Assembly: GCF_027497195.1 (NCBI RefSeq)
Contig: NZ_CP114905.1
Span: forward strand, 372,001-436,000
DNA length: 64,000 nt
Direction: 5' to 3'
From: Streptomyces sp. WMMC500
Lineage (GTDB): Bacteria > Actinomycetota > Actinomycetes > Streptomycetales > Streptomycetaceae
The position numbers were made by a program, and so were the translations under genes. Shown one piece after another: positions 29,097-61,978 of the stretch; positions within the stretch are counted from its first letter, which is position 1; every line of letters begins with the position of its first letter. The notes under the pieces were generated by a model that was given only the letters and a program-made list of their open reading frames with translations, did not search any database and was not told the DNA's origin.

Positions 29097-29159
29097 GCGA
29101 ACCTCCTTTGGCCCTGCGGCCCGAGACAAAACCGATCGCGTCTGAATCCCGCCGCCCGC

Positions 29160-30146: not shown

Positions 30147-30864
30147 GTGCACGGCTCCGCCAGTGCCTGCGAACGCCCGTACGCCAGACCTGAGAGCGTA
30201 GTGAAGAGGCTACGCACACCAGGGCAGTTGTGCGAGATCCTCGGTACTCATTTGACAGGTGCCCGGACAGCAAGAACCTGCGGCTACCGGAGATCGTCTC
30301 GCCGCGCCCCCCCGTTGACGGCCTCATCGACCGCGCGATGGGAGGTATCCGCGCCGACGAGGTACCGGCCGTCCGACACCGAGAGCCATGAACGCCTGTC
30401 CTCGGGGGCGAGCCCGCGCCACATGCCGGTGCGGTTCAGGCGATGCGTGCAGGCCAGGCCCCCCGTTCCGCTTCTCCTTGCAGAGTCCCACGGTCCCCGG
30501 CAACGGCGTCACGAGCCCGATCCTTGATAGCCGATTCCCTACACCTACGGGCGACGGCGTGCGCCTGCGAGGAGCCGGTGGGCCAGGTCAGGCCTTGCTG
30601 CGGCGGGGAAGCCCGCCCGCTCGCGGCGGGTGCGGAGGTTGGCCGCGTCCCGGCCGGCCGGCTGCCAAGTGCCAGCCAAGGGGGATCCAAGGGCGGTCGG
30701 CGATAGTTCCAGCCTGGACCCGGCCCGCTCGCGGAGCCGCAGGAGCGCTCACCGCGGGAAGGATCCCGGGCGTCGGCTATCTCCCGAACGCGAAGGAGAC
30801 GAGTGAGGATGAGGTGTCTCACGGAGGAAGGCCGCGTTGCGGCCGGACGAGGGATCTCTTCGTA
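30147..30864. other. Divergent intergenic region between the protease operon and the LAL regulator
   Basis: About 0.7 kb with no gene I can support. It must hold the promoters of the leftward protease operon and the rightward regulator. I see no clear repeat or operator in it. Confidence 0.4.
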
Positions 30865-36292: not shown

Positions 36293-39200
36293 TCACTCGC
36301 CCTCCACCGCCCTGTCGATGAGGGCGAGCAGCTCGTCGTCCACGATCGGCACGTGCTCTGCGGCCGGGCCCGTCGTGGTGAGCCCGTCGGTCCGGGTGGT
36401 CGGTGTGGACGCGGCGTGCTCGGGGCCGGGTGGGAAGAGTTCTGTGTGGATCCGGTCCGCCAGTTCGGCGGGGGTGGGGTGCCGGAACACCACCGTGCTC
36501 GGTAGCCGCACGCCCGCCGCGGCGGTGAGCCGGTTGCGCAGTTCCACCGCGGTGAGGGAGTCGAACCCCAGCTCCCGGAAGGGGCGGTCCGGGACGATCT
36601 CCTGCGCGGTGCCGTGCCGCAGGACCGTGGCCGCCTGCGACCGGACGAGGCCCAGCAGCACGCGCCGCCGTTCCTCGGGCGGCGCGCCGGCCAACTGCCG
36701 GGCCAGGGCCCCGTCGTCGGCACCGGGCTCCCCCGCGGGCCTGCCGGCCGCGGCCCGCGGCCGGACCGTGCCGACCAGACCGCGGAACAGGGCCGGCAAC
36801 TCGCCGGCGGCGGCCTGCCGCCGCAGGCCCGGCAGGTCCAGCCGGGCGGCGACCTGGACCGGTTCGCCGCCGGTCAGCGCCGCGTCGAACAGCGCGAGCC
36901 CGGCGGCGGAGTCGAGCGGTGCCACGCCGGCGTCCGCCAGCCGCTGGACGTCCCGCTCGTGCAGGTGCCCGGTCATGCCGCCGGCCTCCCGCCAGAGTCC
37001 CCAGGCGAGGGAGACGGCGGGAAGCCCGCGGCTCCGGCGGCGCCGGGCCAGGGCGTCCAGGGTGGCGTTCGCCGCGGCGTAGTTGGCCTGGCCCGCGGTG
37101 CCCAGCAGCCCGGCGACGGAGGAGAACAGCACGAAGGCGTCCAGGTCGAGTCCCGCCGTCAGCTCGTCCAGGTGCTGCGCGGCCTGCGTCTTGGCGCGCA
37201 GCACCCGCGCCAGCCGCGCGGGCGTGAGGGTCTCCACGACGCCGTCGTCGAGCGTCCCGGCGGCGTGGACCACGGCGCCCAGCGGCCGGTCGGCCGGGAC
37301 GGCCGCGAGCAGGTCGCCCAGCGCCCGGCGGTCGCCGACGTCGCAGGCCGCCACGTGCACCTGTGCGCCGAGGCCGGTGAGTTCGGCGGCGAACGCCTCC
37401 GCGCCGTCAGCGCCGAGGCCGCGCCGGCCGGCCAGCAGCAGGTGCCGGATCCCGTGCCGGGTCACCAGGTGGCGGGCCAGCAGGCGGCCGAGCGTCCCCG
37501 TACCTCCGGTGACGAGGACCGTCCGGTCCGGGTCCAGGCGGCGGGGCAGGGTGAGCACGGCCTTGCCGAGGTGACCGGCGTCCTTCAGCGTCTCGAACGC
37601 GTCCGGCGCCTCCCGGATGTCCCACGAGGTGATCGGCGGCGGCGGGAGCGTGCCCGCGGCGAAGAGGCCGACGAGGCGGCACAGTACGTCCCCGACCCGG
37701 CCGGGGTCCTCGGCCAGCAGGTCGAAGGGCCGGTAGACGACGCCGGGCCGGTCCGCGGCCACGGCGTCGGCGTCGCGGACGTCGGTCTTGCCCAGCTCGA
37801 CGAACCGGCCGCCGCGGGGCAGCAGGTCGAGCGACGCGTCGGTGAACTCGCCGGCGAGAGTGTGGAGGACGACGTCCATGCCGGCGCCGCCGGTGGCGTC
37901 CCGGAACCGCCGCCGGAAGTCCAGGTCGCGGCTGGAGGCGATGTGGTCCTCGTCGAGTCCGAGGCGGCGCAGCAGGTGCTGTTTGGCGGGGGCGGCGGTG
38001 GCGAAGACCTCGGCGCCCACATGGCGGGCGACGTGCAGCGCCGCCAGTCCGAGCCCGCCGGTGGCGGTGTGGACGAGGACCCGCTCGCCGCGGGCGAGGC
38101 CGGCCCCGTCGACCAGTCCCATCCAGGCGGTGAGGTACCCCACGGGCACGGCCGCGCCCTGCGCGAACGTCCAGCCTTCCGGCATCCGCACGAGGGTGCG
38201 GGCGTCGGCCACGGCCACGGGGCCCAGGGCGCCGCGGACCAGGCCCAGCACGCGGTCGCCGACGGCCGGTCGGGTCACGCCGGGCCCGACGGCGGTCACC
38301 GTACCCGCGCCCTCGACACCCAGGTCCCCCTGCCCGGGATACATGTCGAGCGCGACCAGCACGTCGCGGAAGTTGAGCCCCGCGGCACCCATCGCGATAC
38401 GGACGTGGCCCTCGGGCAGGGGCCCGGCCGCCTCCGGGGCGGGGACGGCCGCCAAGCCGTCGAGCGTGCCCCGGACGGCGGCGTCGATCCGCCACACCTC
38501 GTCCGCCGGCGGGGTTGGGAGGCGGCCGGCGGCGCTCGCCAGCCGCGGGACGGCCACCTGCCCGGCCACCACGCGGATCTCCGGCTCGTCCGGCCCCGCG
38601 AGGGCGGCGGCCGTGGCCCGGTACCCCGGGTCGTCGGTGACGTGCGCGAGCGCGAAGCGGCCGGGGTGTTCGGTACGGGCCGTACGCACCAGGCCCGCCA
38701 CGGCGGCCTGGGCCGGACCCTCGCCGGTGACGGCGAAGGCGAGCCGGGAGCCGGCGAACCGCTCGTCGGCCAGCCACTCCTGGACGAGTCCCAGCGCGCG
38801 GGAGGCGGCGTCCTCGGCGGTGCCCGCGTCGGGAACGGGGGCGATCACGGTGGCCGGTACGGGGTCGGCGAGGGCGGCGAGGAGGGGTGCGCGCTCGTCC
38901 AGGACGCAGGGGGGACCGGGCAGACCGCTCGCGGCGGGCGAGGCGGGCGGGACGGGCCGTGAGCGGATCCGGTACAGCCGCCCGGAGTCCTCCGCCCGGG
39001 CGGCGGCGTCAGCGGTGCTCTCACGGAGCGTCAGGGAGTCGACCGCCGCCAGCGGACGGCCGGTGGCATCGGCCACGTGCAGGGCGAAGGTCCCCTCCCC
39101 GTTCGGGACGACATGCACGCGCGCCGCCGTGGCGCCGGTGGCGAACAGTTCCACCCCGCTCCAGGCGAACGGCAGGGCCGGGCGGGCGGCCCGCTCCTCG

Positions 39201-42200
39201 ATCCGGCCGAGCAGCGCGCCATGCAGGCAGGCGTCGAGGAGCGCGGGATGGATGCCGTAGCCGGCGACTGCGGAGGGAGGTCCGCCCGCAGGCCCGGAAG
39301 GGAGCGAGACCTCCGCGAACAACTCGCAGCCCCGCCGCCAGGCCGCGCCCAGGCCGCGGAAGGCCGGTCCGTAGTCGTAGCCGAGCGCCGCCAGCTCCGC
39401 GTACAGCTTGTCGACGGTCACCGACTCGGTGCCGGCGGGCGGCCATTCGCTGAGGACGGGGCCGCCGGACGCTCCCCGTGTGGGCGCGAGGACACCCGTG
39501 GCGTGCCGGGCCCACGGCTCCCCGCGCGCGGCACCGGCCGGGCGAGCATGGACCACGACGGGGCGGCGGGGCACCGTTGCCGAATCGTCCTCCGGAGGGC
39601 CTACCGCTATCTGGAGCTGGACCGCGTCACTCTCAGGCAGGTGGAGTGGAGCGTGCAGGACCAGTTCCTCCAGCCGCCCGCAGCCGACTTCCTCGCCCGC
39701 GCGGAGAACCAGTTCGACGAGGGCGGCGCCGGGCAGCAGCACGCTGCCGGAGACGACGTGATCGGCGAGCCACGGCACGGTGCGGGGGGACAGCGTGGCC
39801 GCCAGCAGGGCGGAGTCGGAGCCGGCCACCTGGGTGACGGACCGGGCCAGGGGGTGGTCGCCGGTCTCGGCGGCGGGCGCCGGAGCGGCCATCCAGTAGC
39901 GGCGGCCCTCGAAGGCGTACGTCGGCAGGTCCACCACGCGGGCGCGGCGGAAGGCGGGGGCCCAGTCGACGGCGGCACCGTGCACGTGGGCCTCGGCGAG
40001 CGAGGTGAGGAACCGTTCCGTCCCGCCGTCGCCGCGGCGCAGGGATCCCACGGCGACCGCGTCCGCCTCGGCGGTCTCCTGGACGCCCATGGTGAGAACG
40101 GGGTGGGCGCTGGTCTCGATGAACATACGGTGGCCCTGACCGACCAGTTTGCGCACGGCGTCGGAGAAGCGCACCGTGGCCCGCAGGTTGCGCACCCAGT
40201 AGCCGGCGTCCAGCTCCCGGCCGTCGAGCATCTCCCCGGTGACCGTCGAGAAGAACGGCACGTGACACGGCCGCGTACGGATCCCGCCCAGTTCCTCGGC
40301 CAGCTCCGCGGCGATGGCGTCGACCTGCGGGGAGTGGGACGCGTAGTCGACGTTGGTACGGCGTACGCGGACCTGCTCGGCCTCCAGCGCCGACGTCAGT
40401 TCCGCAAGTTCCGCCGCCGGCCCGCTGACGACCGTGGTGGCCGGGCCGTTGACCGCCGCCACGCACAGCCCGCCGCCCAGGGCGCCGAGCCGCTCACGTA
40501 CCGCGTCCGCCGGCAGTGCCACCGACGCCATCCCTCCCCGGCCGGCCAGCCGCCGGGCGATGACCCGGCTGCGCAGCGCGGCGACCCGGGCACCGTCCTC
40601 CAGAGTCAACGCCCCCGCCACCACCGCCGCCGCGATCTCACCCTGCGAATGACCCACCACCGCGGACGGCACCACACCGAACGACTCCCACAACCGCGCC
40701 AGCGACACCATCACCGCCCACAACGCGGGCTGCACCACATCGCCTCGCCGGAGATCGCCGTCGAGATCCTGCAGCAACGACCGCCCCGTGAAAGGCGCCA
40801 GCGCCGCGGCGCACTCGTCCAGCGCCCCCGCGAACGCCGCCGACTGCCCGTACAACTCCAGCGCCATCCCCCGCCACTGCGACCCCTGCCCCGGAAACAC
40901 GAACACCGGACCGGCTCCGACGCCGGTGGCCCGGCCCGTGACGAGGCGGGCCGCGGGCTCCCCCGCGGCCAGCGCGGCCAGTGCATTGGCCAGTTCGCCG
41001 GCGTCCCTGCCGACCGCCACGGCCCGGTGCTCCAGCGCCGCCCGGGTCCCGGCCAGCGACCAGCCGACGTCCGCCGCGGAATGCTCGGGGTGCGCCCCGG
41101 CGAAGTCGCGCAGCCGCGCGGCCTGGGCGGCCAGCCCGCGGGGGGTGTCTCCGGACACGGGCCACACCAGCACTCCAGCCGCCGGTGCCGGCCGCGGTCC
41201 GGCGGGCTCGGCCGACTTCTCCGGCTCGGCGGGCTCGGCGGCCTCTTCCACGATCACGTGCGCGTTGGTGCCGCTGATGCCGAACGAGGAGACCCCGGCC
41301 CGGCGCACCCGGCCGCGGCTGGGCCAGGGGCGCTCGCCGGCCAGCAGCGCCACGGCGCCGGACGACCAGTCGACGTGCGGGGACGGCTGGTCGGCGTGGA
41401 GGGTGCGCGGCAGTACCCCGTGCCGCATCGCCATCACCATCTTGATCACGCCGCCTACGCCCGCGGCGGCCTGCGCGTGGCCGATGTTGGACTTCAGCGA
41501 CCCCAGGTACAGCGGCTCGCCGGGCTCGCGGTCCTGACCGTACGTCGCCAGCAGGGCGTGCGCCTCGACCGGGTCGCCCAGGCGGGTGCCCGTACCGTGC
41601 GCCTCGACGGCATCGACGTCCCCGGCCGTCAGCCCGGCCACGGCCAGGGCCCGGCGGACGACCTCTTCCTGGGCGGGGCCGCTGGGGGCGGTCAGTCCGT
41701 TGGACGCGCCGTCCTGGTTGACGGCCGAGCCGCGCACCAGGGCGAGGATCCGGTGCCCGTTGCGGCGGGCGTGCGACAGCCGCTCCAGCACGAGCATCCC
41801 CGCGCCCTCCGCCCAGCTCGTGCCGTCGGCGGCGGCCCCGAACGCCTTGCAGCGGCCGTCGGCGGACAGCCCGCCCTGGTGGCCGAACTCCAGGAACATG
41901 CCCGGGTTCGCCATGACGGCCACGCCGCCGGCGAGGGCCAGGGTGCAGTCCCCCTGCCGCAGTGACTGCGCCGCGAGGTGGAGGGAGACCAGCGACGAGG
42001 AACAGGCGGTGTCGACGGTGAGCGCCGGACCCCGCAGGCCCAGCGTGTACGCCACGCGCCCGGACAGCACGCTGGGCGTACCGCCGGTGAGGATCTGCCC
42101 CTCGAAGCCCTCCGGCGCCTGGTCGAGCCGGGCACCGTACTCCTGCGCCATGGCGCCGACGAAGACACCGGTGGCCGTGGACCGCAGCGTCGCCGGGATG

Positions 42201-45200
42201 ATCCCCGCCCGCTCGACGGCCTCCCAGCAGACCTCCAGAAGCACGCGCTGCTGCGGGTCCATGGTCAGCGCCTCGCGGGGTGAGATCCCGAAGAACCCGG
42301 CGTCGAACTCGGTGGCGCCGTCGAGGAAGCCGCCCCGCCAGGTGCGGCCGGCGCCGCCGGCGTCCCAGCCCCGGTCGTCCGGGAAGTCGCTGATCGCGTC
42401 GGTGCCATCGGTCACGAGCCGCCACAGGTCCTCGGGAGACCGGACGCCACCGGGGAACCGGCAGGCCATGCCGACCACCGCGATCGGATCGTCCCCGTTC
42501 TCGTCGCCGGGGCGGTCCGACCGCTCGGGTACGCCCCTCGCGGCGGGCCCGTCCGTCAGCCCGGCGCGCAGCCGCTCGGCCAGGGCGGCCGGTGTGGGGA
42601 AGGAGAACAGGACATCGGAGGGCAGGCGCAGGCCGGTGGCGGTGCCGAGGCGGTCACGTAGCTCGACGGACATGTGCGAGTCGAAGCCGGCGTCCTTGAA
42701 CGTCGTCTTCTCGTCGACACGTGCGGGGTCGGTGTATCCGAGCACGGCCGCCGCGTGGCCGCGTACGAAGTCGAGCAACCGCGCTCGCTGCCGGCCCTCC
42801 CCGCGACCGGCCGGGTCAGCGGTGACCCGGGCCTCGGGGGGCTCCGGTTCCGCCGCGGTGCCTGCCTCGTCGTTGCCCGCGGGCAGCCAGTGGCTGGTGC
42901 GCTGGAAGGGGTACGTGGGCAGCGGGACGCGCCGGGCGCCGAGACCGTCGAACGCCGCCTCCCAGGTGACGGCCGCCCCGCGCGTCCACGCCTGCGCGAC
43001 GCCGGTGAGGAACCCCCGCCGGCTGCCGTCGCCGCGCCGGAGGCCGCCGACGACACCGGCTTCGACACCGCGTGCGTCGGCGGTCTCGGAGACGGCGGTG
43101 CTCAGCACGGGGTGGGGGCTGGTCTCGATGAACAGGCGGTGGCCCCGGTCGAGCAGGTTCCCCACGACGTCGGAGAAGCGCACCGTGCGGCGCAGGTTGC
43201 TCACCCAGTACGCGGCGTCCAGCTCCCGGCCGTCCAGGATCTCCCCGGTCACCGTCGAGGGGAACGGCACCCGGCACGACCGGGTGGGGATCTCGCCGAG
43301 GACGTCGAGGAGTTCCGGCACGACGGCGTCGACCTGCGCGGAGTGGGACGCGTAGTCGATGTCGACGCGGCGTACGCGGATCTGCCGGGCCACCAGGACC
43401 GCCGTCAGCTTCTCCAAGGCCGCCGGGGGCCCGCTGACCACCGTGGCCGCGGGGCCGTTCACCGCGCCCACGCACAGCCCGCCGCCGAGCGTGGTGAGCA
43501 GCTCCCGCACCTCGTCCGCCGGGAGCGCCACCGAGGCCAGCCCGCCCCGGCCCGCCAGCCGCCGGGCGATGACCCGGCTGCGCAGCGCGGCGACCCGGGC
43601 ACCGTCCTCCAGAGTCAACGCCCCCGCCACCACCGCCGCCGCGATCTCACCCTGCGAATGACCCACCACCGCGGACGGCACCACACCGAACGACTCCCAC
43701 AACCGCGCCAGCGACACCATCACCGCCCACAACGCGGGCTGCACCACATCGCCTCGCCGGAGATCGCCGTCGAGATCCTGCAGCAACGACCGCCCCGTGA
43801 AAGGCGCCAATGCCTCGGCACACTCGTCCAGCGCCCCCGCGAACGCCGCCGACTGCCCGTACAACTCCAGCGCCATCCCCCGCCACTGCGACCCCTGCCC
43901 CGGAAACACCAGCACCGGACCCGCACCGGGGAGGGCGACGCCCTCCACGACGCCGGGGGCGGGCTCGCCCCGGGACAGGCGCGCGGCTGCGTCGCGCAGG
44001 CCGTCCTCGCCGGATCCGATGACGACGGCGCGGTGGCCGAACTGCGCGCGTGTGGTGGCCAGGGAGAGTCCGACGTCCTGCGGGGTACGCCCGGGGTGGT
44101 CGAGCAGGTCGCGCAGGAGCCGTGCCGGCTGGTCCCGCAGTGCCGGAAGGCTGCGGCCCGAGAACACCCACGGCAGCGGCCGGTCGTCCGTACCGTCGCG
44201 CTGCAAGCCGTCCCCGGCGCCGGCGGCGGGGGCGGGGTCGGGGGCGTCGGGCTGGGCCACCACGACGTGGCAGTTGGTGCCGCCGAGGCCGAACGACGAA
44301 ACCCCCGCCACCAGTGGCCGCTCGGGACGCGGCCAGCCCTCGCGGGCCACCTGCACCCGCAGGTTGAGCCGGTCCAGCGGGATCCCCGGATGCGGTGTGG
44401 CGTAGTGGAGGCTGGGCGGGAGTTCGCGATGGCGGATGCTGAGGACCGCCTTGAGCAGGCCGACGACGCCGGCCGCGCCCTCCAGGTGGCCGACGTTGGT
44501 CTTGACCGAGCCGACCGGCACCGGGTCGCCCGCGGGGCGGGCCGCGCCGACCACCGCGCCGAGGGCCGCTGCCTCGACGGGGTCCCCGGCGGGGGTGCCG
44601 GTGCCGTGCAGCTCGACGAACTGGACGTCGCCGGGGTCCGTGCCGGCGTGCCGGTAGGCCAGCCGGAGCACCTCCTCCTGTGTGCTGCGGCGCGGGGCTC
44701 CGAGGGAGTCGCCGCCCCCGTCGTTGTTCACGGCGCTGCCGCGGAGCACGCAGGACACGGTGTCGCCTTCGGCCAGGGCCCGTTGGAGCAGCTTGAGGAC
44801 GAGCACGGCGCCGCCCTCGCCGCGGACGTAGCCGTCGGCGGCGGCGTCGAAGGTGCGGCAGCGTCCGGAGGCGGACAGCGCGCCCATGCGGTCGGAGGTG
44901 GCGGTGGAGTCCGGGGCGAGGACCAGGTTCACGCCGCCGACGAGGGCCAGGGTGGATTCCCCGCGGCGCAGGCTGTCGCACGCGAGGTGGACGGCGACGA
45001 GGGAGGAGGACTGCCCGGTGTCCACCGTGAGGCTCGGGCCGGTGAGACCGAGGGCGTACGACACCCGGTTGGCCAGCATCGCCCGCCGGGTACCGGCGAA
45101 GGTGTGGTGCGTACGGGCCGCGTCGCCGCGCCGGTGCGCCAGTTCCGCGTAGTCGTCCCAGACGGCGGAGGCGTAGACGGCGGTCGCGGTCTGGGAGAGG

Positions 45201-45502: not shown

Positions 45503-45565
45503 ACGCGGCGCTCCCCGTGCCATGTCACCGGTGCCGTGGCTCTGCCGCCGCACCGTCGCGGTCTC

Positions 45566-45606
45566 GTCGTTGCAGGGACGAACAGATGTCGTTGCAGGGA
45601 CGAACA
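45566..45606. promoter_or_regulatory. Perfect 19-bp tandem direct repeat, 22-bp period, upstream of the KSQ synthase
   Basis: GTCGTTGCAGGGACGAACA occurs at 45566-45584 and again at 45588-45606. The 22-bp period equals two helical turns. It lies 63-104 bp upstream of the KSQ-PKS start in the 202-bp gap behind the previous synthase, the longest gap inside the cluster. It is probably a binding site for a cluster activator. Confidence 0.65.
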
Positions 45607-45704
45607 AATTCTGTGCACCCGTACCAGCCGCCCACCCCGGTGCACACCCCCGGCCAGACCCCAGCCATCCCGGGGCTGGGCGGCAGCCGGATGGGGTGCT
45701 AAGG

Positions 45705-50987: not shown

Positions 50988-51084
50988 CGGAAGAGACTCC
51001 CGTCGGTGACATGGAGCGCGGAGACGGGAGCGCGGACGCTCGGCGAGGTCGGCGGACCACGTCACCCGCGGCTCCCGGGGCGGG

Positions 51085-51276
51085 CTACTCGACGTCGATC
51101 ACCTGCGCGGGGCACCTCACGGCCGCCTCGTGCACCGCGTCGAGCTGGTCCTCCGGCGGGTCCCGGATCCTGATCACGACGACGCCGTCCTCCGCCCTCT
51201 GGTCGAAGACCTCGGGCGCCACGAACGCGCACATGCCGGAGGCCACGCACTTGGCGGTGTCGACGCTGATCCTCAT
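51085..51276 (-). CDS. Ferredoxin, [3Fe-4S]-type, partner of the P450
   Basis: A 63-aa protein with [18 protein letters not shown] (Cys-x5-Cys), PEVFDQ and [10 protein letters not shown], the pattern of actinomycete P450 ferredoxins. ATG 51276 has GGAGG 7 bases upstream; an in-frame GTG at 51282 is too close to it. It lies 22 bp downstream of the P450 gene, so it should pass electrons to that enzyme. Confidence 0.92.
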
Positions 51277-51298
51277 CGGCACGCCTCCGCGTCCCCCG

Positions 51299-52558: not shown

Positions 52559-52574
52559 GGTCTGTCCGGTCTCC

Positions 52575-54137
52575 TTAGGCACGGCCGCGCAGCTCGCGGC
52601 GGAGGATCTTGCCGCTCGCGGTGCGCGGCAGGGTGTCCACGAAGGCGTAGTCCGTGGGGCTCTTGTAGTCGGCGAGCCGGTCCTTGAGGAACGTCGTCAG
52701 CTCACGGGCCGTCGGCCGCTCCCCCGGCCGGGCGAGGACGTACGCCCGGACCGCCTCGCCGCGCACCCGGTCGGGCACCCCCACCACCGCGACCTCGGCC
52801 ACGGCCGGGTGCTTGCCCAGGGCGTTCTCGACCTCGGCCGGGTACACGTTCTCGCCGGCGACGAGGATGACGTCCTTGATGCGGTCGCGGACGTGGACGT
52901 AGCCGTCCTCGTCGAGGAAGCCCGCGTCGCCGGTGTGGAGCCAACTGTCGACGAGGGTGCGTGCGGTGTCGTCGGGACGGTTCCAGTAGCCGTCCATGAC
53001 GGCGGGGGTGTCGAGCAGGATCTCGCCGACCTCGCCGGCCGGCAGCGGCTCGCCGGCGCGGTCCACGACCTGGACGGCCACGCCGGGGTAGGCCCGGCCG
53101 GCGGCGGTGAGGCGGGGCCCGCCGGGCACGTGGTCGGCCGGCGGGAGGCAGAGGGCGGAGGCGCAGGTCTCGGTGAGGCCGAAGATCTGCGCGAACTCGC
53201 AGCCCATCATCTCCAGGCACCTGCGCAGCAGCGCTTCGGGCATCGGCGAGCCGCCGTAGACGACCTTGCGCAGACCCGCGAAGTCGGCCGGGCCGACGCC
53301 CGGTTCGTCAAGGAGGACCTGCAGCATGGAGGGCACCATCAGCGTGGTCGTGATGCCGGCCTCGCGGATCGTACGGAGGGTCCGGCCGCCCTCGAAGCCC
53401 TGCCCGAGCACGTTGACGGCCCCGGCGCGAAAGCCCTGGAGGAACCACCACGGGCCGCCGATGTGGTGCCCCGGCAGGACGTGCAGGACCCGGTCGTCCG
53501 CGTGCCAGTCGATCCAGTCCAGCCGGTGCCGGGCCAGCAGGTCGTTGATCGCCCAGTAGCTGCCCTGGCTGAGCACCACGCCCTTGGGCGCGCCGGTCGT
53601 GCCACTGGTGTAGATCTGCGTCAGCGGCTGACGGGGTCCGGGGACGGCGTCGGGGGCGGGATCGGTGGCGGGGTGGCCGGCGGTCCAGCCTGGGAAGCCG
53701 CCGTGCGGCGCGTCCTCGTCGAGGCCGATCACGGTGTGCAGCGCGGGGAGCGCGGGGCGGATCCCCTCGACACCGGGCAGCCGCCGGGCGTCGGTGATCA
53801 GCAGGACGGTCCCGGAGTCGCGCAGTACGTGCTCGATCTCGCCCGGGGTGAGCCGCGGGTCGACCGGGACCAGCACGGCGCCGGTCTTGGCACAGGCCAG
53901 GAGGAGGTCGTAGTAGTGCTCGGTGTCCTGGGCGAGGTACGCGACGCGGGAGCCGGCGGTGACGTCCGCGGCGGACAGTGCGTGGGCCGTACGGTTGCTG
54001 CGCCGGTGCAGGTCGAGGAAGGTGACGCGGCGGCCGGCGCACTCGACGGCGACGGCGTCGGGGCGGACCCCGGCGTGGTGGGCCGCGGTGGCGGCGATGG
54101 TGGGGAGCCGGACGGAGGTTCCCGTGGCATGGCTCAT
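52575..54137 (-). CDS. AMP-dependent acyl-CoA/acyl-ACP ligase (possible ScoC/FadD10 counterpart)
   Basis: A 520-aa adenylate-forming enzyme. QIYTSGTTGAPKGVVLS is the P-loop-like motif (about residue 170); FGLTETCASA, then HTGDAGFLDEDGYVHVRDRI and DVILVAGENVYPAEVE follow; TASGKILRRELRGRA carries the catalytic Lys. The start ATG overlaps the stop of the upstream synthase (ATGA), so they are translationally coupled. In isonitrile lipopeptide clusters a ligase of this fold loads the unsaturated acid onto a carrier protein for the FcoT-like and oxidase steps. This is the best candidate for that role. It could instead feed a starter acid to the synthase encoded just upstream. Confidence 0.9.
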   Translation of the reverse strand: MSHATGTSVRLPTIAATAAHHAGVRPDAVAVECAGRRVTFLDLHRRSNRTAHALSAADVTAGSRVAYLAQDTEHYYDLLLACAKTGAVLVPVDPRLTPGEIEHVLRDSGTVLLITDARRLPGVEGIRPALPALHTVIGLDEDAPHGGFPGWTAGHPATDPAPDAVPGPRQPLTQIYTSGTTGAPKGVVLSQGSYWAINDLLARHRLDWIDWHADDRVLHVLPGHHIGGPWWFLQGFRAGAVNVLGQGFEGGRTLRTIREAGITTTLMVPSMLQVLLDEPGVGPADFAGLRKVVYGGSPMPEALLRRCLEMMGCEFAQIFGLTETCASALCLPPADHVPGGPRLTAAGRAYPGVAVQVVDRAGEPLPAGEVGEILLDTPAVMDGYWNRPDDTARTLVDSWLHTGDAGFLDEDGYVHVRDRIKDVILVAGENVYPAEVENALGKHPAVAEVAVVGVPDRVRGEAVRAYVLARPGERPTARELTTFLKDRLADYKSPTDYAFVDTLPRTASGKILRRELRGRA

Positions 54138-57100
54138 CGCGTGTCTCCGTTCGTGCTCTCGGTGTTGTCGCCGCCCGCGGTGTTCCCCCGACCGGCAGCG
54201 GCGGTCAGTTGCCCGTCGACGAACGTCGCGAGCTGGGAGACGGACGGGTGGTCGAAGATGCTGGTGGCCGAGAGCGGCAGGCGGAAGCACAGCTCCAGCG
54301 CGTTCTTCAACTCGACGGCGGCCAGGGAGTCCAGGCCCACCTCGAAGAAGCGGGCGTCGGGTGACACCTCGTCGGCGCTGTCGTAGTGCAGCAGGTCGGC
54401 GATGAGCCCGCGGAGGACACGGGAGACGGTCTCCCGCCGCTCGGCCGGGGGGAGCGCCAGCAGGGCGTCCGGGTCGACGTCGGCGGTCCGGCGCCGCGGG
54501 CCGCGTACGACCTTCTGGTAGAGGGCGTTGTGCTGCGGACGGGTCGCGGCGAAACGGTCCCAGTCGACCTCGGCGATGGTGACCTGGGCTGGCGGCCGTT
54601 CCAGCAACCGGAACAGGGCGCGGATCCCGGCCGCCGGCCGGAAGAAGGTGAACCCCTGGCGTTCGACGTTCGCGGCGTGCTGCGCGTCCGCGGCGGCGGC
54701 CAGGCCGATCTCCCCCCAGGCGCCCCAGTTGACGCTCGTCCCGGGCAGCCCGGCGGCGTGGCGGCGGCACATCAGGGTGTCGAGGAACGCGCTGCCCGCC
54801 GCGTAGTTCGCCTGGCCGCCGTTGCCGAGGATCGAGGTCACGGTCGAATAGCCGATGAAGAACCGCAGTTCCGGGAGGGAGAGAGCGGCCTGGTGCAGCA
54901 GCCAACTGCCGTACACCTTGGTCCGGAATATCGTGTCGATGCTCTCCCAGGTCTGCGCCGCCACCGGCGCGTCGGCCAGTGTGCCCGCCGCGTGCACGAT
55001 GCCGCCGAGCGGCCACGCCCGGGCGCGCAGGTCCGTGAACACGCGCTCCACGTCCCCGGCGTCGCCGATGTCGGCCGCGTATGCGACGAGTTCGGTGTCC
55101 GGGCCGAGGCGGGCCCGGAGGGCGGCGAGATCCTCGTCCGCCGGGGTGTGCCGGCCCAGCAGGGCGATGTGGCGGGCGCCGAGGGCGGCGAGGCGCTCGG
55201 CGACGAGGCGGCCGAGCGCGCCGAACCCGCCGGTGACGAGATAGGTGTGGTCGGCGTCGATGTGGGCGGGCCGTGCCGCGGGCGGGGGTTCGGCGCCGAG
55301 CCAGTCGTCGAAACCGACCACGAGCTTGCCGACGTTGGTGCCGCGGCCGATCGCCCTGCACGCCTCGTCGACCTCGTCGACGGCGTAGACGGTGGTGGGG
55401 AGGGGGGTCAGCTCCCCGGCGTCCGTCAGCTCCATGACGGGGCCGAGCACGTCCCGGATCAGCCGCAGGCGCTGTTCGGCGGTGAAGTGCATGAAGTCGA
55501 AGGTGTGATAGGCGACGTCGGGCCGGACCCGGCGGATCTCGTCCGGAGTCCAGGTGCCGACGTTTCCCAGTTCGACGAAGCGGCCGTCGCGCCCGAGGGA
55601 GCGGAGGCTGGACTCGACGCGGTCGCCGCCGAGGCTGTGGAGCACGATGTCCGCGCCGTGGCCGTCCGTTGCGGCCAGCACCTCGTCGGGGAAGGTGAGC
55701 GTGCGGGAGTTCATGACGTGGCGGATGCCCTGGGCCCGCAGCAGCGACCACTTCTGCGGGCTGGCGGTGGTCAGCACCTCCGCGCCGGCCCGCTGCGCGA
55801 GCCGCACCGCGGCCTGGCCGACTCCGCCGGCCGCGGAGTGGATCAGGACCCGGTCGCCGCGCCGCATCCCCGCCAGGTCGTGCAGCGCGTGGTGGGCGGT
55901 GAGGTACGCGATGGGCAGAGCGGCGGCCTCGGCGAAGCCGAGCCGCGCGGGCTTGCGGACCGCGGTCTCCGACTCGACCGTCACCTCCCGGCGCAGCACA
56001 CCGAGGTGCGCCGCGACGACGGCGTCACCCACCCGGAACGCGGCGTCGGGCCCGGCGGCCGTCACCACGCCCGCGCACTCCATTCCCAGCGGAAGCTCCG
56101 CCAGCGCATCCGGGACCTCTTCGGCCGCGCGGTGCAGCCCCAGGGCGTTCGCCGCATCCACGTAGTTCAGGCCCGCCGCGTGGACCCGCACACGGGTCCG
56201 GCCGCCCGTGGGAGCGGGCTCCTCCGCCAGCGGCACCGCGACGACGCCGATCTGCCCGTCCCCCGTGACCAGCTCGACCTCGGTGCGCGGGCCGCCAAGC
56301 TCGGTGGACACGCGGCGCACGTGCCGCACCCCCGAGCGGTAGGCCACCTGGAAGTCGGCGGAGTCCATGGCGGTCCACTCGTCCAGCAGCCACGGATAAC
56401 CGGCGCCGGCGTCGGCGCCGTCCGCGGCCGGTCGCGGCAGATCGACGAGGGTGACGCCGTACGACGGGTACTCGGTCCACATCACGTGCCCGAACCCCCA
56501 CAGCGTGGCGGCCGCCGGAGGCACCTGCCCGACACCGTCCGGTCCTTCCGGCCGGTCGCCGGGGACCCACTGGCCGGCCTCGGTGACCAGCCACAGCCGC
56601 TGCGCCTGCCCGAACCCCGTCTCCTCCAGCGCGTCGCGCAGCGCCAGCAGGTCGCGGTAGTTGCGTTCGCACTCGGCGGGCAGCGGTTCCCCGGGCTCCT
56701 GCGGCGGCCGCCAGAACCAGCACACGTCGGTGGGTCGCTTCCGCAGGAGCGCGACGGCCTCGGCGGTGGTGGCGGCGACCGACAGGGTCACGTCGCGCTC
56801 CTTGGCGGGCCCGGCCAGGGCGTCGAGGCCGGCGGGCGGGGCGCCGACGAGCAGCACCCGGCGCGGCTCGCCCGCGCCGGTCTGCAGCGAGCGCTTGACC
56901 CACCGCACCTCGGCGTACATCCGGTCGCGGTCGGGGGCGGCGTTCGCGACCCGCCGCAGGGTGAGGCCCTCCAGGACGAAGACCGTACGGTCCCCGTCCA
57001 GGATCAGGAGATCCACCGTGGGCAGCTCCCCTTCCTCACCGGCGGCGGGCGGGGTGGTGCGCAGGACGCTGCGCAGGGTGTGGCCGCGGGGCTTCCGCAG

Positions 57101-60100
57101 CAGCCGGCAGCGGCCGAATCCCACGGGCATGGCGAGGGTGTCGTCGGCGGCGAGCGCGGTGAGGGTCTGGAGTGCGGCGTCGAGGACGGCGGGCGGCAGG
57201 TGCTCCGCCGAAGTCGCCTCCCTGCCGCGCAGATCGCCGACGGCGAGGTGGTCGCCGTACCTGTCGATGCTCCGTACGCCCTGGTAGTGCGGGCCGTACT
57301 CCACGCCCAGCTCGGCGAAGTCCGCGTAGAGGTCGTCGGCCGGCCGCCGGGAGCGGGGCTCGCCCGCCCGGTCCGCCAGGACGTGCAGGGACCGTGCCGT
57401 CTCGTCGAGTCCGGCCGCGGCGCCGGTGTCCGCGAGCCCGTCGGCGTCGACGGTGGCGGTGAAGTGGCGCCGTTCGAGGGGCGCGGCGCCCGGGTCCTCA
57501 CTCTCCACCAGGCTGACGATCTCCACCTCCGCGGGCTCTCCCGGGCCGGTGCGCAGCCGCGTGCGCAGCTCGACGGTGCCCTCGTCGGGGAGGAGCAGTG
57601 CCTCGTGGATGGTCACGCCGGTGACGGGGAGACTCGTCTCGCCGTACACCGCGTCCTGGAGCGCGAGCACCGTCTCCACATAGCCGGCGGCGGGGAAGAC
57701 GACCCGGCCCATCACCTTGTGGTCGGCGAGATAGGGCCGGCGGGCGTCGAGCCGGGTGGAGAACGTCCGTATCCCGGCGGCGCGCTGCTCGTCGGTGGAG
57801 ACCTCGCGGCCGAGGAGGGGGTGTACGCCGCCACCGCCGCGGGCCGCGTCGGCGCCGCCCGGGGCGGGGAGCCAGTGCCGGCGGCGGTCGAAGGCGTACG
57901 TCGGCAGCGTGAGCCGGGTGGGCGGGCGGTCGCCGTAGTAGCCGGCCCAGGACACGGGGACGCCGGCGGCGTAGAGCTGGGCGAGGGACTGGCGGGCCAC
58001 GGTGCCGTCGGCGTCCTCGGCGTGCAGGCTGCTCAGCCACAGGTGATCACCGGGTGCGTCGAGGACCTGCTTGCCCATGCCGATCAGCTCACTCGCCGGG
58101 CCGGCCTCCAGGAAGGCGTGCCGGCCCCGCTCGGCGACGGCGCGTACGCCCTCTTCGAACCTCACCGGCTCGCGCAGGTGGCGGGCCCAGTAGTCAGGGG
58201 TGGACAGCTCTGCGGGGTCGGCGACCCGGCCGGTCAGGTTGGAGACGAGGGTGAACTCGGGCGGGTGGAAGGTGAGCCCCCCGGCGACCGAGCGCAGCTC
58301 CTCGGTGGCCTCGGCCATCAGCGGCGAGTGCGAGGCGCAGGACACGGCGAGCCGCCGCGTCTTGACCCCGCGCCCGGCCAGGGCCTCCTCGACGCTCTCC
58401 AGGGACGCCTTGCCGCCGGAGAGGACGATCTGCCGGGCGCCGTTGACGGCGGCCACCGACAGGTCGTCGTGCTCCGCCAGCAGGTCGGCGACCTCGGCCG
58501 GCGACGCCTCCGCGGCGGCCATGGCGCCGGGCGGCGAGGCGTCCATGAGGCGGGCCCGGGCGGCCATGAGGGTGACGGCGTCGTCGAGGGAGAACAGGCC
58601 GGCGACAGTGGCGGCGACGATCTCGCCGATGCTGTGGCCCGCCAGGACCGACGGCCGGATGCCCCAGGAGAGCCAGAGCCGGGCCACGGCGTACTCCAGC
58701 GCGAAGAGCGCGGGCTGCATGTACCGGATCTGGTGGATCAGCTCGGCGTCGTCCGCGTCGCCGAGCACCATGTCCCGTATCGACCGGCCCAGGTGCGGCG
58801 TGAACAGCCGGTCGCAGGCGTCGAGGTGCTCGCGGAAGGCGGCGAATCGCTCGTACAACGGCCGCCCCATGCCCACGTACTGGGTGCCGCCGCCGGAGAA
58901 GAGGAACGCCACCTGGGGGGCGGCGGACGGCCGGCCCGGCCGGGTGGAGCGGGTCAGGGCGTTGTCGAGGAACCGGGCGACGTCGTCGTGGTCGCGGACG
59001 ACTCCCGCGGTGCGCAGGTCGAAGTGGGCCCGGGCGGTGGCGGCGGCGTGGCACAGGTCGGCCACGTCGGTCTCGGGGCGGTCGCGCAGGAGTCGCTGGT
59101 AACGCTGGACCTGCCCGCGCAGCGCGCCGGGGCTCCGCGCGGAGAGAGTGAGGACGTGTGCCTCGCCGGGAGGGGCGGGAGCCGCCGGCCCGGCGGGGGT
59201 TTCCGGGGGCGCTTCTTCGAGTACGACCGAACCGATGATGCCCGTCAGGCCGAACGAACTCACCACCGCCCGCCGGGTGTCGGCGGTCCACGGGCGTTTC
59301 TCGGTGGGGACGGTGACGGGGAGGTCTTCCCAGGGGATGCGCTGGGACGGAGTGTCGAGGTTCAGGTGCGGATAGAGCGCGCCCTCCTGCATCTGCAGAA
59401 CGGTCTTGATGACGCCGCCGATCCCCGCGGCCGACTCCATGTGCCCGATGTTCGTCTTGAGAGAGGCGACCGCCAGCGGGTTCTCGCGGGTGTGCGAGTC
59501 GCCGAACACGGCACCCAGGGCGCCCATCTCGATCGGGTCGCCGAGCGGCGTGCCCGTGCCGTGGGCCTCGACGTACGAGACGTCTCCCGGCTCCAGACCG
59601 GCGCTCGCCACGGCCGTGCGGATCAGCCGCTCCTGGGCGGTGCCGTTGGGCACCATGAGGGAGCTGCTCTCGCCGTCCTGGCCCACCGCGGAGCCGCGCA
59701 CGAGGGCGTAGATCCGGTCGCCGTCGCGTCGTGCGTCGGAGAGCCGCTTGAGCACGATGACGCCGCAGCCCTCGCTGCGGCAGTAGCCGTCGGCCGCGTC
59801 GTCGAAGGTCTTGCACACGCCGTCGGGGGCGAGCATGTTTCCGCTGCTGGCCATGGCGTACGGGCGCGGGCTGTGGATGGTGTTGACCCCGCCGCAGAGC
59901 GCGAGGTCGGTCTCGCCGGCCCGCAGACCCTGCGCGGCGAGGTGCACCGCGACCAGGGACGCCGAACAGGCGGTGTCCACCGTCATGCAGGGACCGCGCC
60001 AGCCCAGGAAGTAGGAGAGCCGGCCGGAGAGCGCGCTGAACGTCGCCCCGGTGGCCATGTAGGTGTTCAGTTCGTCCACGGAGTACGCGGACATCTCCCC

Positions 60101-60502
60101 GACGTAGTCGACGTTGCTGACGGCCATGTAGACGCCGCCGGTGCCGTGGCGCAGCGGGACCGGGTCGATGCCGGCGTCCTCCAGCGCCTCCCAGGCGACC
60201 TCCAGGGCAACCCGGTGCTGGGGATCGACGTAATCGGCCTCCTTCGGCGAGATGTTGAAGAACTTCGCGTCGAAGTGGTCCACCTTGTCGATGAACCCGC
60301 CCTGCGCGCACCGGATGACGCCCGGGGCTCCGGGGCCGTCCTGGTCCGCGTCCACCGGGTCCCACCGGTCGGTGGGCAGAGGCCGCAGGCCGGAGCGCCC
60401 GTCGCGGAGGAACTCGGCGAATCCACCGGGTGTGGTGTTGCCGCCGGGGAACCGCAGGCCGATACCGACGACGGCGATGGGCTCCGCATGGGGTGTGGAC
60501 AT
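54134..60502 (-). CDS. Stand-alone type I polyketide synthase: KS-AT-DH-ER-KR-ACP, atypical AT and KR
   Basis: A 2122-aa fully reducing module with no N- or C-terminal docking segment. KS: DTACSASLV with C179. AT: FLFSGGGTQYVGMG, GHSIGE (about 620) and, in the specificity position, CASHS (about 722), neither HAFH nor YASH, so the extender cannot be read with confidence. DH: DHKVMGRVVFP (about 926) and VLDAALQ. ER: HAAGLNYVDAANALGLH, then SAAGGVGQAAVRLAQ (about 1560). KR: GGFGALGRLV; LAD replaces LDD, and the active-site stretch NYAAGSAFLD has Ser where the catalytic-tetrad Asn is expected. ACP: VGLDSLAAVELKN (about 2055). The style differs from the two other synthases and resembles iterative, highly reducing enzymes. 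It starts 25 bp after the FcoT-like gene, with GGGAG before ATG 60502. Confidence 0.9.
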   Translation of the reverse strand: MSTPHAEPIAVVGIGLRFPGGNTTPGGFAEFLRDGRSGLRPLPTDRWDPVDADQDGPGAPGVIRCAQGGFIDKVDHFDAKFFNISPKEADYVDPQHRVALEVAWEALEDAGIDPVPLRHGTGGVYMAVSNVDYVGEMSAYSVDELNTYMATGATFSALSGRLSYFLGWRGPCMTVDTACSASLVAVHLAAQGLRAGETDLALCGGVNTIHSPRPYAMASSGNMLAPDGVCKTFDDAADGYCRSEGCGVIVLKRLSDARRDGDRIYALVRGSAVGQDGESSSLMVPNGTAQERLIRTAVASAGLEPGDVSYVEAHGTGTPLGDPIEMGALGAVFGDSHTRENPLAVASLKTNIGHMESAAGIGGVIKTVLQMQEGALYPHLNLDTPSQRIPWEDLPVTVPTEKRPWTADTRRAVVSSFGLTGIIGSVVLEEAPPETPAGPAAPAPPGEAHVLTLSARSPGALRGQVQRYQRLLRDRPETDVADLCHAAATARAHFDLRTAGVVRDHDDVARFLDNALTRSTRPGRPSAAPQVAFLFSGGGTQYVGMGRPLYERFAAFREHLDACDRLFTPHLGRSIRDMVLGDADDAELIHQIRYMQPALFALEYAVARLWLSWGIRPSVLAGHSIGEIVAATVAGLFSLDDAVTLMAARARLMDASPPGAMAAAEASPAEVADLLAEHDDLSVAAVNGARQIVLSGGKASLESVEEALAGRGVKTRRLAVSCASHSPLMAEATEELRSVAGGLTFHPPEFTLVSNLTGRVADPAELSTPDYWARHLREPVRFEEGVRAVAERGRHAFLEAGPASELIGMGKQVLDAPGDHLWLSSLHAEDADGTVARQSLAQLYAAGVPVSWAGYYGDRPPTRLTLPTYAFDRRRHWLPAPGGADAARGGGGVHPLLGREVSTDEQRAAGIRTFSTRLDARRPYLADHKVMGRVVFPAAGYVETVLALQDAVYGETSLPVTGVTIHEALLLPDEGTVELRTRLRTGPGEPAEVEIVSLVESEDPGAAPLERRHFTATVDADGLADTGAAAGLDETARSLHVLADRAGEPRSRRPADDLYADFAELGVEYGPHYQGVRSIDRYGDHLAVGDLRGREATSAEHLPPAVLDAALQTLTALAADDTLAMPVGFGRCRLLRKPRGHTLRSVLRTTPPAAGEEGELPTVDLLILDGDRTVFVLEGLTLRRVANAAPDRDRMYAEVRWVKRSLQTGAGEPRRVLLVGAPPAGLDALAGPAKERDVTLSVAATTAEAVALLRKRPTDVCWFWRPPQEPGEPLPAECERNYRDLLALRDALEETGFGQAQRLWLVTEAGQWVPGDRPEGPDGVGQVPPAAATLWGFGHVMWTEYPSYGVTLVDLPRPAADGADAGAGYPWLLDEWTAMDSADFQVAYRSGVRHVRRVSTELGGPRTEVELVTGDGQIGVVAVPLAEEPAPTGGRTRVRVHAAGLNYVDAANALGLHRAAEEVPDALAELPLGMECAGVVTAAGPDAAFRVGDAVVAAHLGVLRREVTVESETAVRKPARLGFAEAAALPIAYLTAHHALHDLAGMRRGDRVLIHSAAGGVGQAAVRLAQRAGAEVLTTASPQKWSLLRAQGIRHVMNSRTLTFPDEVLAATDGHGADIVLHSLGGDRVESSLRSLGRDGRFVELGNVGTWTPDEIRRVRPDVAYHTFDFMHFTAEQRLRLIRDVLGPVMELTDAGELTPLPTTVYAVDEVDEACRAIGRGTNVGKLVVGFDDWLGAEPPPAARPAHIDADHTYLVTGGFGALGRLVAERLAALGARHIALLGRHTPADEDLAALRARLGPDTELVAYAADIGDAGDVERVFTDLRARAWPLGGIVHAAGTLADAPVAAQTWESIDTIFRTKVYGSWLLHQAALSLPELRFFIGYSTVTSILGNGGQANYAAGSAFLDTLMCRRHAAGLPGTSVNWGAWGEIGLAAAADAQHAANVERQGFTFFRPAAGIRALFRLLERPPAQVTIAEVDWDRFAATRPQHNALYQKVVRGPRRRTADVDPDALLALPPAERRETVSRVLRGLIADLLHYDSADEVSPDARFFEVGLDSLAAVELKNALELCFRLPLSATSIFDHPSVSQLATFVDGQLTAAAGRGNTAGGDNTESTNGDTR

Positions 60503-60527
60503 GTCCGTACTCCCGTGTCATCCGTGG

Positions 60528-61091
60528 TCAGGTCTGGACGGGCTCCACCGCCGGGGCGGCGGAGCCCGCGGCGCCGGCGGGGGCCTTCACGGCGACCAGC
60601 ACCTTGCCGTGTGCGGCGACCTCCTCCGTCTCGCCGAACCGGCACGTCGTACGGAAGAACAGGAACGGCCCGTTTCCCCAGTCGCCCTGGAACGCCTCGA
60701 CGACGTCGAGTTCTCCCCAGAAACGGCGGCCGCGCATGGACCGGCGGAAGGAACTGTGGAAGTCGACGATGAACATGTCCTCCAACTGCCGCGCCCAGAA
60801 GTCGTCCAGGGACCAGCCGGCGAAGGATCGCGTCAGCCGCTCGTGGACCGACTTCGCCATGAGGAGGTAGACCATCTGGTTGTAGCAGATGTTGAACTCG
60901 ACGGCGTTGAAGTGCCCGGTGTCGTCGATGTAGCAGGATTCGGGGATGTGGAAGCTGCCGCGTACGCCGATCCGCCCGCCCTCGTCCACCGGATCTCCCT
61001 TGGCCGTCACGGTGGCAGAACCCAGATACCGGCAGTGGGGCTTGTAGACCCGGAGAACGCGTGCCAGCAATGCGTCGTCGCCGACGGTCAC
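60528..61091 (-). CDS. FcoT-like hot-dog protein (ScoD/Rv0098-type, glycine adduct-forming thioesterase homologue)
   Basis: A 187-aa protein close in length to mycobacterial FcoT (Rv0098). The segments [18 protein letters not shown], then [20 protein letters not shown] and [20 protein letters not shown] mark the family. FcoT was first called a long-chain acyl-CoA thioesterase. In isonitrile lipopeptide pathways its homologue (ScoD) adds glycine to the beta carbon of an alpha,beta-unsaturated acyl-ACP. The GTG start overlaps the stop of the oxidase gene (GTGA), so the two are translationally coupled, as the Rv0097-Rv0098 gene order predicts. It should act between carrier-bound enoyl thioester and the oxidase. 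The exact catalytic residues were not checked by alignment. Confidence 0.85.
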
Positions 61092-61978
61092 GGCTGCCCG
61101 ATACCGGGGTAGAACTCGTACTCGTCGTGGACCGTCACACGGAAGGACACCGTGGGCTCGGGATTGACCGTGTGCAGGGCGCGGTGCACCAGGCTGCGGT
61201 TGTCCCAGACCAGCAGGTCCCCCTCGTCGAACCGCTGCAGGTGGATGCCGGGGTGGGTGAAGGTGGCGTCGGCCTGGCCGGACGCCTCGAAGAGATCCTC
61301 CAGCAGCCCGTCGCGCAGCGCCTTGCCGTCGCCGTCCACGAGTTGGTAGCTGACCGCTTCGCTGATGTAGAGCACCGGCCGGCCGGTGACCGGGTGCGGA
61401 AACACGGTGGGGTGGGCGACCCCCGGGGTCGTTTCCTCGATCTCCGCGATGATCTCGGATATCGGACGGTAGACGTCGGTCGGCCGTATCTTGAAGTACC
61501 GCCGCACGCTGTTCATGACGCGGCTGCCCGCGATCTCGTTCTTCAGCGTTTCCGGAAGTTCCTCGTACGCCTTCTCCAGGTCGATGAAGAAGGTGCCGCG
61601 CTCTCCGCGCGGAATGACCTGGGGATAGATCAGGGTCAGGCCGAACGGGCGCGGCATGAAGGAGTAGTCGTGGTGCCAGAACTTCCCCGTCTGCGGGACG
61701 CCGACCTGCTCCCCCTCCTTCTTCACGTTGGAGGAGACGAAGATCTCCCGGTGCTCGGGGTGGTGGTACATCGGCTGGTAGTAGGTCTCCACCTCGCCGA
61801 GTCGCCTGCCCAGCGCCACGAAGTCGGCCGGGTCCAGCTTCTGGTTCTTCAGCACCACGATCTTGTGGGTGTAGACGAGCTGCTTCAGCGACGCGAGGTC
61901 CGCGTCCGGTGCGCCGAGGACGTCCATCTCGTCGACGGCCACACCCATCAGGGACTTCTCTTGCGGAATAGTGATCAC
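61088..61978 (-). CDS. Isonitrile-forming non-heme iron/2-oxoglutarate oxidase (ScoE/Rv0097-like)
   Basis: A 296-aa TauD-fold dioxygenase. The iron triad is visible: H102 and D104 in [10 protein letters not shown] and H265 in [11 protein letters not shown]280 in [10 protein letters not shown] should bind 2-oxoglutarate. The segment [20 protein letters not shown], with its Tyr pair, is specific to the ScoE/Rv0097 group rather than taurine dioxygenase. In that group the enzyme converts an N-carboxymethyl-3-amino acid (the glycine adduct) to a 3-isocyano acid with two rounds of oxidation and loss of CO2. GTG 61978 has GGAG 8 bases upstream. It is the first gene of the leftward cluster. Confidence 0.87.

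Follow-up and report, generated by a model that had tools for sequence, protein, structure and literature searches.

Which product would a Streptomyces operon make that joins enzymes of isonitrile formation to three type I polyketide synthases (PKSs), and do these PKSs act as one assembly line or as several? The question arises from a 64,000-nucleotide window of Streptomyces sp. WMMC500 (positions 372,001-436,000; the genome is a single contig of 8.6 Mb). Eight genes on the minus strand of this window, from 61,978 down to 36,293, encode an oxidase, an FcoT-type thioesterase, PKS1, an AMP-dependent ligase, a cytochrome P450, a ferredoxin, PKS2, and PKS3. A sequence-only reading had assigned this set to one leftward operon, and each gene was found on the minus strand where it had been placed. 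The cluster is genuine and well conserved, and its reading as an isonitrile pathway with PKSs was right. The explanation favored here, with moderate confidence, is an isonitrile-lipid pathway with two separate PKS systems, one that would build a 2-enoyl chain for the isonitrile enzymes and one that would extend the resulting isonitrile acid.

The predicted isonitrile-forming enzymes

The first gene of the operon encodes an Fe(II)/2-oxoglutarate oxidase that is ScoE-type by sequence, residues, and curated model. The alignment to the ScoE structure 6dch (E = 3.9e-119) is far ahead of the alignment to the best taurine dioxygenase (4.1e-18), the protein passes the NCBI ScoE equivalog NF049937 (457.5 bits, cut-off 400), and it is 61.5% identical to ScoE. 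The oxidase keeps 14 of the 14 ScoE sites that were checked, which include Y96, Y101, R195, K193, R157, H299, and R310 as well as the iron ligands, presumably H132, D134, and H295. In ScoE, according to the available part of PMC7949033, product is lost upon substitution of Tyr96, Tyr101, or Arg195, while Lys193, Arg157, His299, and Arg310 have substrate or cosubstrate roles. The sequence-only reading had called the enzyme ScoE-like and had set against this a grouping with taurine dioxygenases or a loss of the Tyr/Lys residues, neither of which was observed. All 14 sites are identical in the 12 oxidase rows of groups A and B, the loci that share a six-gene core (oxidase, fcoT, PKS1, ligase, P450, ferredoxin); groups C and D have other arrangements. 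Across 54 aligned oxidases the sites are nearly invariant, with substitutions of K193 in one row, R201 in two, E209 in three, and H299 in three, and two single gaps. The 14 sites therefore mark the ScoE family and do not single out its PKS-linked members.

The thioesterase is encoded by the one FcoT gene found in the genome and scores 178.7 bits against Pfam FcoT (PF10862, cut-off 27). Its closest matches in the Protein Data Bank (PDB) are 5wsy (E = 4.8e-40), which is taken here to be SAV606, and 5wsx; Rv0098 (2pfc) is a weaker match (E = 8.7e-18). The YIDDTGH segment of 5wsy is identical in the window protein. The available part of a review (PMC11284099) describes CmiS1 from cremimycin biosynthesis as adding glycine to an enoyl thioester and then hydrolyzing it, describes the enoyl-making PKS of cremimycin as having no thioesterase (TE) domain, and reports that CmiS1/SAV606-type enzymes serve isonitrile formation. 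By analogy with these characterized relatives, the FcoT-type enzyme would put glycine on the beta carbon of an enoyl chain and hydrolyze the thioester, and the ScoE-type oxidase would convert the N-carboxymethyl-3-amino acid to a 3-isocyano acid.

The ligase is 45-51% identical, over partial lengths, to ligases of the oxidase-fcoT-ligase loci among L034-L055 and is predicted to activate the 3-isocyano acid and load it onto an ACP, that of PKS1. The best PDB match of the P450 is 2z36, compactin hydroxylase (E = 1.1e-80), and the small ferredoxin is its likely partner; together they would oxidize the product, perhaps to an epoxide as in amycomicin. A composition-based rough gene caller found the oxidase, PKS1, the P450, the ferredoxin, PKS2, and PKS3 and missed FcoT and the ligase, choosing a plus-strand open reading frame at 52,392-54,386 that overlaps the ligase region. 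The FcoT and ligase calls thus rest on family matches. The oxidase and fcoT genes overlap by GTGA and the PKS1 and ligase genes by ATGA.

Table 1. Features of the operon, followed by the repeat and regulators associated with it (positions are those of the window)
Feature	Positions	Strand	Basis or remark
ScoE-type Fe(II)/2-oxoglutarate oxidase/decarboxylase (predicted isonitrile-forming)	61088..61978	-	PDB, NCBIfam, residue alignment
FcoT/SAV606/ScoD-like thioesterase (predicted glycine adder and hydrolase on 2-enoyl-ACP)	60528..61091	-	Pfam, PDB
PKS1, type I: KS-AT-DH-ER-KR-ACP	54134..60502	-	Pfam, PDB alignment, motifs
AMP-dependent acyl ligase (ScoC-like)	52575..54137	-	Pfam AMP-binding and C-terminal domain
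Cytochrome P450	51299..52558	-	Pfam PF00067
Small ferredoxin, 65 aa; start GTG 51282 or ATG 51276	51085..51282	-	Pfam Fer4_13 3.1e-10
PKS2, type I: N-terminal docking-KS-AT(HAFH)-DH-KR-ACP; GTG start possible at 51065	45705..50987 (approximate)	-	Pfam, motifs
PKS3, type I: KSQ-AT(YASH)-ACP then KS-AT(YASH)-DH-ER-KR-ACP; starts possible up to 45523	36293..45502 (approximate)	-	Pfam, motifs
Direct repeat TTCGTCCCTGCAACGAC, 17 bp, 2 exact copies 22 bp apart	45566..45604	-	Between PKS2 and PKS3
Large LuxR-type (LAL) regulator	33349..36234	-	Pfam AAA_16 and GerE; kept beside the cluster in S. aculeolatus
Second large LuxR-type (LAL) regulator	30388..33318	+	Pfam AAA_16 and GerE; conserved stretch ends inside

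Roles of the three polyketide synthases

PKS3 and PKS2 look like the supplier of the enoyl substrate for the glycine-adding thioesterase. AT and DH motifs were matched by short patterns, and some KS active sites that the pattern missed were then read by alignment. The first KS of PKS3 reads VDTGQSSS and is a KSQ loader, so the isonitrile acid cannot be the PKS3 starter. PKS3 ends in a C-terminal docking-like tail and PKS2 begins with an N-terminal docking domain (PF08990, 8.1e-9), so that the two proteins face each other with docking-type ends as judged by eye. Pfam finds neither an ER nor a TE in PKS2, and a comparison of the protein ends by eye showed no docking tail at its C-terminus; a protein that ends DH-KR-ACP in this way would therefore leave a 2-enoyl-ACP, as FcoT-type glycine adders need. 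An AT motif of HAFH indicates malonyl and one of YASH indicates methylmalonyl. By collinearity and these rules, PKS3 would decarboxylate methylmalonyl to propionyl, add one fully reduced methylmalonyl unit, and hand the chain to PKS2, which would add malonyl and stop at the 2-enoyl stage, giving a predicted 4-methylhept-2-enoyl-ACP.

A line that feeds a glycine adder is expected to stop at the enoyl stage and to need no TE, and this expectation was compared with other loci. In four further loci (G042, G157, G584, G709), a KSQ protein is encoded at most one gene away from the ligase; all four proteins have Gln at the first KS active site, and each finishes in DH-KR-ACP, with neither an ER nor a TE according to Pfam. 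G153 and G396 have a similar KSQ protein more than 20 kb downstream that adjoins a PKS with its own KSQ; these two were read without a TE scan, and the finding is only suggestive. The PKS2-PKS3 order of S. aculeolatus was likewise read by homology matches only, without a TE scan. As a separate observation, the KSQ and DH-KR proteins of G584 (L110) and G709 (L112) have no AT domain in Pfam, which suggests an acyltransferase acting in trans.

PKS1 is probably a separate enzyme that resembles mycocerosic acid synthase (MAS) and extends the isonitrile acid. It aligns end to end with the MAS structure 9d2y (5-2096 vs 6-2095, E = 2.2e-219), its best full-length PDB match, and has the same domain order and length. 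It differs from MAS in its AT motif, which is CASH instead of VASH (CurL has HAFH), and in adjoining isonitrile enzymes; that PKS1 works iteratively is a prediction. No docking ends were seen on PKS1 by Pfam and motif reading. In a quick KS tree of 70 rows, the PKS1-type KSs form one group of 23 rows (SH-aLRT 100), which includes one stray KS from G073. The supply-line KSs and other modular KSs fall outside this group, and the nearest to those of PKS3 and PKS2 are from Streptomyces sp. MP131-18. The PKS1 ATs also form one group in an AT tree (22 of 42 rows, 96/99). PKS1 would extend the 3-isocyano acid with reduction, probably more than once, before a release step that is also predicted.

Loading on PKS1 is suggested by the lack of another carrier besides PKS2 and PKS3 in the operon and by the presence of a PKS1-type PKS in groups A-D; G222 and MP131-18 are exceptions that have no whole PKS1. 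Among window open reading frames of at least 60 codons, searched with the ACPs of the PKSs themselves, hits above 30 bits were found only within the PKSs. Pfam reported no condensation domain of a nonribosomal peptide synthetase (NRPS) in the operon proteins. The sequence-only reading proposed that PKSs replace the NRPS and ACP of related pathways, and this holds insofar as the operon showed neither an NRPS nor a free ACP; the PKSs do not, however, replace them as one line, as PKS3 is led by a KSQ and PKS1 is probably separate.

A more specific proposal is that the modular PKS builds a branched 2-enoyl starter, which becomes the isonitrile acid, and that a MAS-like PKS with a changed AT takes a branched extender to give methyl-branched isonitrile lipids. 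This proposal is tentative. CASH was read in 10 of the 12 PKS1 AT rows of groups A and B (L011 and G393 matched no pattern), while HAFH was read in 8 of the 8 PKS1-group rows of C, D, G584, and G709 and VASH in L024 and G343. The CASH motif of groups A and B suggests a changed extender in these loci. A literature search found no product class of methyl-branched isonitrile lipids.

Several results weigh against the two-system pathway or parts of it. No KSQ supply line was found in the fetched flanks of 7 of the 10 group B loci (L011 spans only 11 kb, and in G073 the contig stops within the nearest PKS). These loci must therefore obtain the enoyl from another source, and general metabolism would provide it or its acid. 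In MP131-18 (L095), the PKS3 and PKS2 homologues run into a long modular PKS, and the second has an ER. The PKS1 of this strain is a remnant of about 500 aa that keeps the KS start, DH, and ACP pieces, and may reflect either a real deletion or an assembly collapse. The nearby KSQ protein of G353 is on the opposite strand and ends DH-ER-KR. DH-KR modules are common, and the agreement of a few lines is therefore modest evidence that supports the proposal and does not prove it. The thioesterase is below the NCBI ScoD cut-off (NF049938, 176.5 bits vs 250), for which reason it is called ScoD-like and not ScoD. The KR of PKS1 reads NYAAGS where YAAAN is usual, and the DH pattern did not match PKS1, yet Pfam finds both DH halves and HKVMGRVVFP is readable by eye. 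Because of these two features, full reduction by PKS1 is only assumed. The CASH motif does not reveal which extender is used. No release enzyme for PKS1 was found, and no TE was detected by Pfam in PKS1, PKS2, or PKS3; MAS would equally lack an explanation for release without its partner acyltransferase.

The same comparisons bear on the alternative in which PKS3, PKS2, and PKS1 form one ordinary line, with the isonitrile introduced after the chain is complete. The shared operon and the continuation of homologous modules in MP131-18 are in its favor, however, an N-terminal docking end was not seen on PKS1, nor a C-terminal one on PKS2, and PKS1 occurs in group B without PKS2 and PKS3 alongside. 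PKS1 with active DH, ER, and KR domains would also yield a saturated thioester, which is not a known FcoT-type substrate. Compared with its MP131-18 homologue, from which the line continues, PKS2 lacks an ER and, by eye, the C-terminal docking tail, the two differences that the supply-line idea calls for. A single line is thus unlikely, and PKS3-PKS2 and PKS1 are treated below as two systems.

Related loci and known isonitrile pathways

Alignment with S. aculeolatus (G392) shows 91.4% identity over 61,098-62,094 and 86.5% over 30,826-61,083. The remaining alignments above 300 bp, at 64-72% identity, match PKS or LAL genes to one another inside the same region, and none extends the 30.8-62.1 kb stretch, which is therefore regarded as the conserved unit. 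Gene order in relatives was read from open frames with homology matches, as rough gene callers overlooked real genes such as ligases. A scan of named genomes gave 24 loci (L001-L024). Eight of these (L002-L009) have all six core genes in order, and L001 and L011 have the block up to their contig limits, L011 being cut within the P450. L010 has the oxidase, fcoT, PKS1 pieces, and the ligase; L015 and L024 have the oxidase, fcoT, and a PKS; L012 and L013 have the oxidase alone; and the remaining nine have the oxidase, fcoT, and the ligase. In eight cyanobacterial loci (L016-L023), genes for a ScoE-like oxidase, FcoT, and a ligase occur side by side, and the ligase that matches best precedes the oxidase on its upstream side.

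Reading longer flanks gave the whole six-gene core, in the same order, for the window and 10 further genomes (G392, G353, G058, G073, G153, G393, G400, G394, G395, G396), so that the core recurs in at least 10 other Streptomyces genomes. In G393 (L081, Streptomyces sp. AJS327), the ligase and P450 share one open frame, which is a fusion or a sequence error. Of the genomes read, only the window's own and S. aculeolatus have PKS2 and PKS3 after the core. A search of S. phytophilus (G050) that covered PKS2 and not PKS3 found PKS2 pieces at 81-89% identity on other contigs. In a genus sample, an oxidase match at E<=1e-80 was present in 32 of 392 genomes at 37 places, 30 of which are given as loci; seven of the 392, including the window's own genome (oxidase >=72% identical), show the start of the PKS1 block. 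A class sample had a match at E<=1e-60 in 9 of 394 genomes, a protein search yielded 754 relatives at E<=1e-60 (the best 120 of 754 were listed), and a plasmid search yielded 3 records.

The oxidase tree has 54 rows and excludes near copies and L001, L008, L017, L018, L021, and L023. The window, its PKS-block relatives, MP131-18, and L013 form one group of 13 rows (99/91), which with Catenulispora becomes 14 rows (83/86). A separate group of 17 rows (100/99) contains 16 loci with fcoT and then a ligase, and L037, which is cut before the ligase. Three loci labelled lipopeptide-like in this tree (L100, L101, L107) turned out to carry PKSs. The oxidases of group C do not cluster together in the tree, for which the program gave a long-branch warning.

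The sequence-only reading knew of no cluster with this gene set. Beyond the recurrence of the core, PKS-linked isonitrile clusters are already represented by amycomicin and aerocyanidin, epoxy-isonitrile fatty acids (PMC13273461, available in part). A literature search, with most subscription journals outside its coverage, found no paper on this gene set, and PMC13311259 mentions isonitriles only in its references. Group C (G112, G134, G189, G042, G157) has an oxidase, a P450, fcoT, a PKS1-type PKS, an extra KS, and a ligase. One P450 was seen by the oxidase at these loci, where no search for all P450s was made. Group D (G398, a gammaproteobacterial metagenome-assembled genome) is similar, with no P450 detected, and can be linked to aerocyanidin only by guesswork. 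The PKS of L024 and G343 is of KS-AT-DH-ACP type, and the PKS after fcoT in G222 is of KS-AT-DH-KR type and outside the PKS1 group. Among the matches listed (the best 120 of 8,000 candidates), a protein named S. virginiae shares 98% identity with the extra KS of G042, and other relatives are named Amycolatopsis and Micromonospora. According to a 2026 paper (PMC13273461), S. virginiae genomes carry the amycomicin cluster, BGC0001504, as one of their type I PKS clusters, and group C is therefore probably amycomicin-type. A gene at 8173-9201 of the G157 locus (L074), directly upstream of its oxidase, resembles FabH by eye and has homologues in the flanks of G042, G112, and G134 and a weak one near the group B locus G073. 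FabH is the reported amycomicin target (PMC13273461, in part), so the FabH-like gene of group C may be a candidate for self-resistance.

These loci raise the possibility that the window holds the amycomicin cluster itself or the maker of an amycomicin-type straight-chain epoxy-isonitrile acid. The ScoE-type oxidase, FcoT-type thioesterase, ligase, PKS1-type PKS, and P450 are shared, although the likeness was drawn only through group C and D loci and S. virginiae and not gene by gene against BGC0001504. In contrast, groups A and B were found without the extra KS, which would lie between PKS1 and the ligase, their P450 is at another place and has its own ferredoxin, their PKS1 AT motif is CASH and not HAFH, and their oxidases form their own group. 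The window also has a two-protein branched supply line and one P450, where the amycomicin account, in its available part, cites three (PMC13273461). An amycomicin-type product proper is accordingly improbable.

Isonitrile lipopeptide clusters (Sco; Rv0096-Rv0101) share the ScoE, ScoD-like, and ScoC-like enzymes, and the operon could in principle be a disguised cluster for such a copper-binding lipopeptide with its NRPS elsewhere. This is very unlikely, as PKSs stand here in place of the NRPS and free ACP (the operon was searched for NRPSs and the rest of the genome was not), the 17-row oxidase group is separate, and the conserved unit ends at PKSs and regulators. A cremimycin-type pathway (CmiP4-P3-P2, CmiS1, CmiS2), in which the glycine arm is removed to give a beta-amino acid starter, shares a TE-less PKS leading to a 2-enoyl thioester that a glycine-adding thioesterase close to SAV606/CmiS1 releases (PMC11284099, in part), but is hardly credible here since the window has an oxidase that is ScoE-type by NCBIfam in place of the FAD enzyme CmiS2, no CmiS2-like FAD oxidase within the conserved unit, and one PKS1 with no TE or macrolactam line in the operon. 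An FAD gene at 62,486 was considered as a stand-in for CmiS2 and dropped, as it is divergent and has no match in the S. aculeolatus stretch.

Surroundings and significance

The direct repeat between PKS2 and PKS3 (TTCGTCCCTGCAACGAC) has 2 matches vs 0.02 expected and is a possible regulator site. Just upstream of the oxidase, in the frame of fcoT, is a minus-strand remnant of HTH_Tnp_4, a transposase helix-turn-helix (62121-62261). A minus-strand run of four genes beside the cluster (21851-30152) encodes an NB-ARC/TPR protein, a MoxR-like AAA ATPase, an EAD2-VMAP protein, and a trypsin-EAD2 protein, and resembles conflict or defence systems of the vWA-MoxR-associated (EAD) kind. Acyl-CoA-type catabolic genes (CoA-transferases, enoyl-CoA hydratase, ligase, thiolase) and a GntR regulator are located at 1119-11076, outside the conserved unit.

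The combination of isonitrile and PKS enzymes is already known, and the novelty here therefore lies in an amycomicin-type variant, marked by a line for a branched enoyl and by an altered extender motif, and not in a new category. Isonitriles are capable of binding metals, and the example of amycomicin shows that an antibiotic of the epoxy-isonitrile lipid type can be very potent. If the two-system pathway is correct, it would represent a modular route in which a dedicated PKS line builds the isonitrile-bearing acid to order. The pathway further yields a testable rule, that supply lines for glycine-adding thioesterases stop at the enoyl stage without a thioesterase of their own, and it would mark a family of Streptomyces clusters with products predicted well enough for searching.

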